From contig JAOARQ010000024.1 of the NCBI GenBank assembly GCA_025210455.1, forward strand, positions 1-64,000: a DNA stretch of 64,000 nt, given 5' to 3'. Position numbers and translations under genes: made by a program. The DNA is from Pelagimonas sp. GTDB lineage: Bacteria > Pseudomonadota > Alphaproteobacteria > Rhodobacterales > Rhodobacteraceae. Shown one piece after another: positions 1,907-4,506 of this stretch (the stretch's first letter is position 1; every line of letters begins with the position of its first letter). Under the pieces are notes generated by a model. The model made no database searches and had not been told where the DNA came from. It worked only from the letters and a program-made list of their open reading frames with translations.

Positions 1907-2992
1907 TCAGACCTCGACTTCGACTTTGCCGATGGGATTTGAACAGCAGGCAAGGATATAGCCTGCCGCGATATCATCTTCGGAAATCCCGCCATTGTGC
2001 ACCATATGCACATCACCTGCGGTCTTTTTAACCTTGCAGGTGCCGCATACGCCAAAGGTGCAGCCCGACGGGATATTCAGGCCGACTGACCGCGCAGCCG
2101 CCAGAACGGTTTCGGTTTCTGCAACCTTGGCCGTCACGCCAGAAGCACCAAAGACGATTTCGGCCTTGCTGTCATCATCGGGCACCACATCATCCAGTTC
2201 CGGCTGATCTGCCTCGGTTTCAACCGGCGCGCCAAAGCTTTCCTGATGATAGTTCTCCATGTCGAAGCCAAGCCCGGCAAGCGCTTCGCGCACGGCGGTC
2301 ATGAATGGTTCGGGACCGCAGCAATAGACTTCGCGCTCAAGATAATCAGGGGCCATCAATCCCAGCATCAGCTGGTTGAACTGCCCCTGATACCCCGTCC
2401 ACGGGCGGTATTCGTCGGGTTCTTCCACGACAAACTTCAGGTCCAGACCATGGGTGCGGCTGGCCATCTGTTCCAGACGCTGACGAAAGATGATCTCAGA
2501 GGGGCGTTTGGCGCAGTTGATAAAGACCACGTCCAGATCCTGCCCTTCGTCCCACATACATGTGGTCATCGACATCATTGGCGTGATGCCCGACCCGGCC
2601 GAGATAAACAGATACTTACCCGCCGCGCTGGCCGCATTGGTGAACAGCCCCGCCGGACCAATCGCTCTGATCCGCATACCGGGTTTCAGATTGTCCAACA
2701 TCCAGCGGGTGCCGATGCTATCTGGCTGCGCCTTGGCAGTGATAGTGATCGACCGGGGCCGCGACGGCGACGATGAAATCGTATAGGTACGGTGCACCAC
2801 CCCACCGGGTTCGCCGGGCGCGGGAATTTCCAACGTCAGAAACTGCCCCGCATCAAAGGCGAACAGCGCCCCCGATGGGGCGCGAAAGCTGAAACTGGCG
2901 GTGTTCGGCATTTCCGGCACCACCGAGACACATTCCAGCATCTCTGTATCCTGCCAGACACTTGTATTTGCAAAATCTTTCATCGGACTCAC
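1907..2992 (-). CDS. gbcB: Glycine betaine monooxygenase, ferredoxin reductase component
   Basis: This 361-residue protein has a ferredoxin-reductase FAD domain (about 20-115, with RTYTISSSP for flavin), an NAD-binding domain (about 120-235, with [12 protein letters not shown]) and a C-terminal plant-type 2Fe-2S ferredoxin domain. The cluster cysteines appear in [12 protein letters not shown] plus a later cysteine near ACCS. It would pass electrons from NADH to the Rieske oxygenase GbcA for O2-dependent removal of one methyl from glycine betaine, giving dimethylglycine and formaldehyde. Its ATG overlaps the gbcA stop by four bases, and the pair shares one cobalamin-riboswitch leader. Confidence 0.88.
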
Positions 2993-4212
2993 TCTGCCGC
3001 CATGGTTTCAGGCGCCAGACGCGCAGCCAGAGTTGCACAATACCAGTCAACAAACTGTATGACGCCGCTTTCCTGAGTGGGTGAATAAGGACCAGGCACA
3101 TAGCCGGGGCTGTCGATGCCCTGCTGGTTGTCTTCCACCACCTGCCGATCTTCGTCATTGGTGGCCACCCAGACCTCGCTCAGGCGTTTGAGATCATAAT
3201 CAACGCCTTCGACCGCCTCTTTGTGCACCAGCCATTTGGTGGTGACCTCTGTTTCAGTCGGGCTGATCGGCGTCACACGGAACACAATCGAATGATCCGC
3301 CAGAAAGTGGTTCCAGGTTGTCGGATAATGGAACTTCAGCAAAGACCCGGCATCCGCAAAGGGCGCACGCCCCAACCAGCGACGCACCGCAGATTTCCCA
3401 TCCATGGTATAGCTTTGCGCCCCTTCCTTCAGCGGCATCCGCGCCAGACGGAACTGCCCATCCCCATGCAGATAGAACCGCGAATGCAGCCCTGCGGCTT
3501 CGCACCGATCAAAATGCGCCTGCATATTGGCCGGGGTTTCGCCGCCTTCGATGCCTGTAATCGCCGGATCATCCGGGAAGGTCCGGCACAGCGATGGGTG
3601 ATTGCCGCCACAATGGTAACATTCACGATTGTTTTCCCAAACCAGCTTCCAGTTGCCTTTTTCGATGATTGAGCTTTCAAAAGCCACCTTGGCATTGCCC
3701 AGATCATGCGGCTCCAGGTAGGGGCGCGCAATATTGGCAAAGCTGTCGAAATCGGGGGCGTCTTCAGCCAGACAGATATAGACCAGCCCCGCCAGTTCGC
3801 GGCAATGTACGGTTTTCAGACCATGTTGACTGGGGTCAAAATCCGGCCCCATATCCCGCGCCCAAAGCAGCGATCCATCCAGTTCATAAGTCCACTGATG
3901 ATAGGGGCAGACCAGCTTTGGCGCATGGCCCTTGGCCGCTTTGCAGATCACCGATCCACGGTGACGGCAGGTATTGTGAAAGGCGCGGATCTGATTGTCC
4001 GCCCCGCGCACAATGATCACACGATAGGCTCCCACCTTATGTGTGACATAGCTGCCGGGCTTTTCCAGTTCGCAAGCTGGAATGGCAAACAGCCAGTCAT
4101 GGTAGAAAATGGTTTCAAGATCGGTCTGAAAGATATCCGGATCGTTGTAAAAGGCCTGTTCCAAGGCATATCCCGATCTGCGTCGGGCCAATAGGGTCTC
4201 AATAGCGCTCAC
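2989..4212 (-). CDS. gbcA: Glycine betaine monooxygenase, Rieske oxygenase component
   Basis: A ring-hydroxylating-type alpha subunit of 407 residues when started at GTG 4212. The Rieske 2Fe-2S centre is shown by CRHRG followed by CPYHQW. The mononuclear iron site shows as [16 protein letters not shown] (two histidines). With GbcB it should demethylate glycine betaine to dimethylglycine in the cytoplasm. The start was chosen because GTG 4212 follows GGAGAG at good spacing and gives the family's N-terminus. An in-frame ATG at 4332 would add 40 hydrophobic, unrelated-looking residues. The leader carries a cobalamin riboswitch, which is unusual for this enzyme. Confidence 0.87.
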
Positions 4213-4340
4213 TTCTGGCTCTCCTGCCGCGCCCCGCGGCATTGCTGGAGCAGATGACAGGAAGACCCAACCGGCCACATGCAAGGACAGTGACCAACCC
4301 AAGAGCCCCCACCGCCACCCGCGGTTTGACATATTCGCAA

Positions 4341-4506
4341 GGCTGGTTTCCGGACTTGGAAGGGGCATTTGCCCGATCATGGCACCTTCCCGGGATCCTC
4401 GTCCCAGTGGTTGCTTGCCATGTCTGACCTTCGTTACCGTTGCGGGGGCAGTGCCGGATTTTCACCGGCTTCCCAATTCTCCGCCCCTCAAAAAAGAAGC
4501 GGCACC
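4341..4506 (-). promoter_or_regulatory. Cobalamin riboswitch upstream of gbcAB
   Basis: Read on the minus strand, the segment has the conserved pieces in order: GGGAAGCCGGTG, the core CTGCCCCCGCAACGGTAA, the B12-box CCACTGGGACGAGGATCC, GGGAAGG, and a closing AAGTCCGGAAACCAGCC. This matches the known cobalamin riboswitch consensus. It sits about 130 bases before the GTG of gbcA with no convincing gene between, so it should repress gbcAB when cobalamin is plentiful. Confidence 0.92.

Follow-up and report, generated by a model that had tools for sequence, protein, structure and literature searches.

In Pelagimonas sp. (Rhodobacteraceae), an operon encoding a Rieske oxygenase of the Stc2/GbcA group and its reductase is directly preceded by a cobalamin riboswitch, and this linkage is real and widespread among Rhodobacteraceae. 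Under the control of the riboswitch, the operon probably takes the place of corrinoid-dependent betaine demethylation without requiring B12. The stretch of DNA analysed, referred to as the window, comprises 64,000 nucleotides (contig JAOARQ010000024.1, positions 1 to 64,000), and the features discussed below are listed in Table 1.

Analysis with cmscan showed that the aptamer matches the Rfam family RF00174 over its full length (1-189) with 121.4 bits (E = 6e-30; the gathering score is 31.5 bits). The GTG start at position 4212 is separated from the aptamer by 111 nt that contain no gene, which bears out the claim of an earlier, sequence-only reading that the riboswitch directly precedes the oxygenase gene. 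The same reading had named a terminator before gbcA, combined with a separate promoter, as evidence against riboswitch control; scans revealed no terminator-like site on the minus strand from 4324 to 4213 and no sigma-70-like promoter between 4000 and 5100. The second riboswitch of the window heads a cobalt transporter operon with the gene order DUF4198-cbiM-NikL-cbiQ-cbiO, in which CbiM and NikL were assigned by family matches.

Table 1. Features of the riboswitch-linked oxygenase operon and its surroundings in the window.
Feature	Position	Strand	Basis or remark
nrdF (class Ib ribonucleotide reductase, B12-independent), adjacent to gbcB	479-1459	+	NCBIfam
FAD/2Fe-2S reductase, GbcB/Stc4-like	1907-2992	-	Pfam FAD_binding_6, NAD_binding_1, Fer2
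Rieske oxygenase, Stc2/GbcA group, 407 aa	2989-4212	-	Pfam Rieske and Ring_hydroxyl_A
Expression platform, 111 nt	4213-4323	-	without gene or terminator-like site
Shine-Dalgarno AGGAG, 8 nt 5' of the GTG start	4221-4225	-	sequence
GCCGCG-GGG-CGCGGC hairpin, directly 5' of the Shine-Dalgarno	4226-4240	-	sequence; consensus hairpin in close relatives
UCCUUG, proposed L13 loop	4282-4287	-	
Conserved element CCGCGGGUGGCGG, just 3' of the aptamer	4312-4324	-	alifold consensus helix
Cobalamin riboswitch aptamer (RF00174)	4324-4524	-	cmscan; kept upstream of orthologs in many genera
CGAGGA aptamer loop, proposed L5 side of an L5-L13 kissing interaction	4396-4401	-	complementary to UCCUUG 4287-4282
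Second cobalamin riboswitch, divergent	4663-4863	+	cmscan, 124.4 bits

The riboswitch also precedes the oxygenase gene in many relatives. Of 80 oxygenase relatives from named genomes, an intact riboswitch immediately precedes the gene in 24 and a degenerate one in two, and riboswitches are likewise found before gbcA-like genes in Ruegeria sp. TM1040 and on a Phaeobacter gallaeciensis plasmid. When 396 Rhodobacteraceae genomes were sampled evenly across genera to limit bias, a gbcA-like gene was present in 94 (the genome of the window counted). The search for this linkage in other Rhodobacteraceae, which had been suggested as a check, was successful: an intact riboswitch lies upstream of 33 of the 96 gbcA-like gene copies fetched from relatives, nearly all from different genera, and the Rfam check was positive for those on which it was run, many of the total. 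As the whole Pelagimonas sp. genome contains only eight cobalamin riboswitches, yet about a third of the relatives' genes are immediately preceded by one, chance placement was rejected on the basis of the family-wide sample. The neighbourhoods of gbcA vary from genus to genus, indicating that riboswitch and operon travel together.

Degenerate cobalamin riboswitches are located upstream of gbcA-like genes at L129 (genome G357), L121 (genome G286), L022 and L084. A connection between riboswitch decay and loss of the corrinoid route was considered but set aside as evidence; G357, which has a riboswitch remnant and no match for MtgC or MttB, fits such a connection, but the riboswitches of L022 and L121 have decayed in genomes that keep MtgC, which is also kept in the genome of L084. 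The gbcA-like gene at L197 (genome G150) has an in-frame stop after 139 codons and is probably a pseudogene. In Pseudogemmobacter hezensis, a TPP riboswitch (L086:4399-4505, minus strand) is oriented away from the cobalamin riboswitch of gbcA.

The structure of the leader is common to the relatives, and the loops of the platform covary with those of the aptamer. Across 59 riboswitch leaders, the B12 box and the aligned gene start are 94-180 nt apart, and in 53 of these the aptamer is followed by the element CCGCGGGYGGCGG. According to the alifold consensus helix, the GCGGGUG of the corresponding element in Pelagimonas sp. can pair with CAUCUGC (4256-4250). The aptamer loop and the complementary platform loop usually read GAGGA/UCCUC, while L058 has CCAGCG/CGCUGG. 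Summed over 25 leaders, the L5-L13 complementarity of the leaders' own loop pairs is 435, higher than in any of 300 leader swaps (mean 395, maximum 429.5). Shuffling the kissing loop in single leaders mostly gives no significant result, and only the swap test across leaders is significant. Since the platform contains no terminator, control by the leader is most likely translational. The other riboswitches of the genome are not followed by CCGCGGGYGGCGG, and several of them carry a different GC-rich element (CCGGGCGGGGTG...).

The oxygenase has a Rieske and a catalytic domain and is close to Stc2 and GbcA, as expected for a quaternary-amine oxygenase of Rieske group Vb. The B12-free nature of this enzyme family supports the earlier statement that the enzyme uses O2 and no corrinoid. 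A longer ATG frame reaching to 4380, with a membrane-like N-terminus, was rejected as the start of the oxygenase, because it extends into the aptamer, a Shine-Dalgarno sequence precedes the GTG at 4212 and the relatives start at that point. The reductase gene overlaps the oxygenase gene by 4 nt, and its S. meliloti counterpart is annotated as stc4. The assignment as GbcA, as proposed in the sequence-only reading, is not secure: the oxygenase reaches 508 bits against the NCBIfam model for GbcA, below the cut-off of 670, and among characterised enzymes it is closest to Stc2, a stachydrine demethylase, with approximately 69% identity over the whole length. Stc2 itself scores 496 bits against this model, and every relative tested also stays below 670; the reductase reaches 358 bits against GbcB (cut-off 500). 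Structures matched in the PDB are 3n0q (814 bits), an uncharacterised protein of Ruegeria sp. TM1040, and Stc2 (3vca, 675 bits), the former being the nearer of the two. Because the score resembles that of Stc2 and Stc2 is the closest characterised enzyme, the identity of the pair as GbcAB is less secure than its linkage to the B12 riboswitch.

A corrinoid-dependent route had been proposed to exist alongside the oxygenase, and the same genome indeed encodes an MtgC ortholog and 13 MttB-family proteins, which are encoded at 13 places. The mtgC gene is followed by a DUF1638 gene, as in Ruegeria pomeroyi, an assignment made by eye from the sequence and the position beside mtgC. In R. pomeroyi, DUF1638 belongs to the proteins predicted to reactivate cobalamin for the glycine betaine methyltransferase system, in which MtgC doubles as a methionine-synthase subunit (PMC12478193). 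Due to this second function of MtgC, cells short of B12 would benefit from the switch only if they had methionine or a different methionine synthase, a point against the stand-in role. The presence of 13 MttB proteins in one aerobic genome in which one MtgC-like protein was found suggests that many methyl donors share a single corrinoid hub. The MttB of the window, which had been put forward as the alternative route, is a weak contender for the betaine-specific protein, since its neighbours (hydroxyproline-dehydratase-like enolases, a HemL-like aminotransferase and SDRs) suggest another substrate. The region around it (14012-28368), which encodes three cis-3-hydroxyproline dehydratase-like members of the enolase superfamily, SDRs, the HemL-like aminotransferase, one DMGDH-like enzyme and another Rieske oxygenase, looks like a catabolic cluster for a betaine or an N-methylated amino acid.

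The distribution of the corrinoid route across genomes is consistent with the isoenzyme idea and does not prove it. In the first set, MtgC is present in all 25 genomes with the riboswitch and missing in 21 of 53 without it (Fisher 7e-5, kinship ignored), the median number of MttB copies is five with and one without the riboswitch, and MetH is missing in 19 of 25 versus 15 of 53 genomes. In the merged set, MtgC accompanies 54 of 54 riboswitch rows and 80 of 104 others (Fisher 2.7e-5, again ignoring kinship). Ten phylogenetically independent pairs gave on average 1.9 for and 0 against the association (median p 0.5), and MtgC is found in 374 of the 396 sampled Rhodobacteraceae genomes. As MtgC is thus nearly universal in the family, its co-occurrence with the riboswitch says little; the MtgC and MttB counts are confounded by kinship, and their value as proof of the isoenzyme idea was downgraded.

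Isoenzyme logic is also seen for ribonucleotide reduction in the same genome, which encodes the B12-dependent ribonucleotide reductase NrdJ and a cobalamin riboswitch-linked nrdH(IEF), a known B12-independent isoenzyme. On contig C39, a cobalamin riboswitch at 987-1178 is followed by nrdH. The window starts inside nrdE (positions 1-1459 contain the end of nrdE and nrdF), and C39 (L003) starts near its riboswitch and nrdH, oriented such that it would continue nrdE. Given the end of nrdE and nrdF at the edge of the window, both contigs probably join, in which case a riboswitch-nrdHIEF operon would converge on gbcBA. The nrd genes also adjoin gbcAB at L012, L015, L026, L054, L057, L086 and L088, where the two gene sets converge, diverge or run in the same direction, and the neighbouring nrdHIEF often has its own cobalamin riboswitch.

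In the proposed mechanism, plentiful cobalamin would bind to the aptamer and allow the L5-L13 kissing loop to form; the folded leader would then block the Shine-Dalgarno region, the enzyme would not be made and the cell would use an MtgBCD-type route. At low cobalamin, the operon would be translated and the Rieske oxygenase would demethylate the substrate, using O2 and NAD(P)H. The sequence itself shows the riboswitch, its position and conservation, the intact platform free of a terminator and the corrinoid system of the genome; we infer that B12 represses the operon and that the oxygenase acts as a back-up. That cobalamin decides in this way, via the riboswitch, between O2-dependent and corrinoid-dependent betaine demethylation in many genera of the Rhodobacteraceae is an extension towards which the evidence leans slightly.

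The substrate is the point on which the main rival differs. The switch and the isoenzyme logic would be the same if the enzyme acted on proline betaine (stachydrine) or another betaine, with an MtpB-like MttB as the counterpart. This is rather unlikely, albeit with several observations in its favour: Stc2 is the closest characterised enzyme (675 bits), none of these proteins reaches the GbcA cut-off, nor does Stc2, and the 13 MttB proteins of the genome have no assigned substrates. However, in a tree of 165 oxygenases, built beside a smaller one, the Stc2 side comprises 29 members and no riboswitch, while the other side, which includes the oxygenase of the window, comprises 136 members and 55 riboswitches; the branch that separates them has a support of 99. 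Genome G163 has both a LysR-flanked copy of the Stc2 clade and a copy with the riboswitch. Relatives outside the Stc2 clade that lack the riboswitch adjoin soxBDA (sarcosine oxidase), DMGDH-like, DgcA-like and GbdR-like genes. Because the riboswitch genes fall outside the Stc2 clade and their relatives neighbour genes for dimethylglycine and sarcosine oxidation, glycine betaine is favoured as the probable substrate.

Two further explanations were considered. The operon could act as a supply line for B12 synthesis that, when B12 is short, channels methyl groups of betaine (via SAM) and glycine (via aminolevulinate) into corrinoid assembly and is accordingly regulated in the manner of a biosynthetic gene. 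The divergent cobalt-uptake operon with its own B12 riboswitch in the window and the addition of betaine to industrial B12 fermentations speak for this idea, but it is improbable, as most neighbours in the different genera have no link to B12 synthesis, nrdHIEF and not cob genes is the recurrent neighbour, and cbi genes near gbcA occur in only one other named locus tested (L084). Still less credible, and to be given very little weight, is the notion of a riboswitch that is inert or serves something else, with gbcA transcribed from its own promoter and the association being a passenger of a mobile B12 island. The other B12 riboswitch 138 bp away would fit such an island; the sense orientation, the 94-180-nt spacing in 59 leaders, the conserved platform, the lack of an intervening gene, of a sigma-70-like promoter and of a terminator between riboswitch and gbcA, and the persistence of the linkage in many unrelated neighbourhoods all argue against it. 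A riboswitch-controlled, B12-independent betaine demethylase remains the preferred explanation.

If it is correct, betaine demethylation would join methionine synthesis and ribonucleotide reduction as a further class of B12-replaceable function and, as far as we know, would be the first such case in catabolism. The turnover of glycine betaine, a major osmolyte in the sea, the production of formaldehyde and the B12 demand in algal-bacterial partnerships would hinge on the supply of B12; continued betaine use by some B12-limited cells would also be accounted for. Roughly a twelfth of the Rhodobacteraceae genomes in the sample possess the switch (33 gene copies per 396 genomes). B12-dependent demethylation of glycine betaine in roseobacters was established only in 2025, in a study that handles GbcAB as a separate, rare alternative (PMC12478193); it names no riboswitch on gbcA, and its single mention of riboswitches is a reference on the glycine riboswitch. 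A literature search combining gbcA, betaine or Rieske with cobalamin riboswitch or B12 found no report of such control. The main text of a 2013 regulon survey mentions neither betaine nor dioxygenase (PMC3766115), and an earlier listing in its supplements or in RegPrecise is possible; to our knowledge, the linkage between riboswitch and operon is undescribed.

Known B12-independent isoenzymes under cobalamin riboswitches, such as metE and class I/III ribonucleotide reductases, correspond to the category 'isozymes of B12-dependent enzymes' of the same survey (PMC3766115). The operon resembles these metE-type isoenzymes in that RF00174 directly precedes a B12-free enzyme and a B12-dependent system for the same job exists in the genome. 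It differs in that the enzyme is a catabolic Rieske oxygenase, that the counterpart is the multi-part methyltransferase MtgBCD rather than a single enzyme, and that repression is deduced. With GbcAB of Pseudomonas and BmoAB of Chromohalobacter, it shares the combination of a group Vb Rieske oxygenase and an FAD/2Fe-2S reductase (PMC7948474), but the pair falls below the equivalog cut-offs for GbcA and GbcB, is probably riboswitch-controlled, and the riboswitch loci are not located beside dgc or sox genes. The Sinorhizobium Stc2/Stc4 system has the same gene pair and the high oxygenase identity noted above, yet it belongs to a separate clade, whose genes are not preceded by the riboswitch and are often accompanied by a divergent LysR gene. 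MtgBCD of R. pomeroyi is the proposed alternative route, for which MtgC, DUF1638 and MttB proteins are present in this genome; unlike the oxygenase, it depends on cobalamin, passes the methyl group on to tetrahydrofolate and uses no O2 (PMC12478193).
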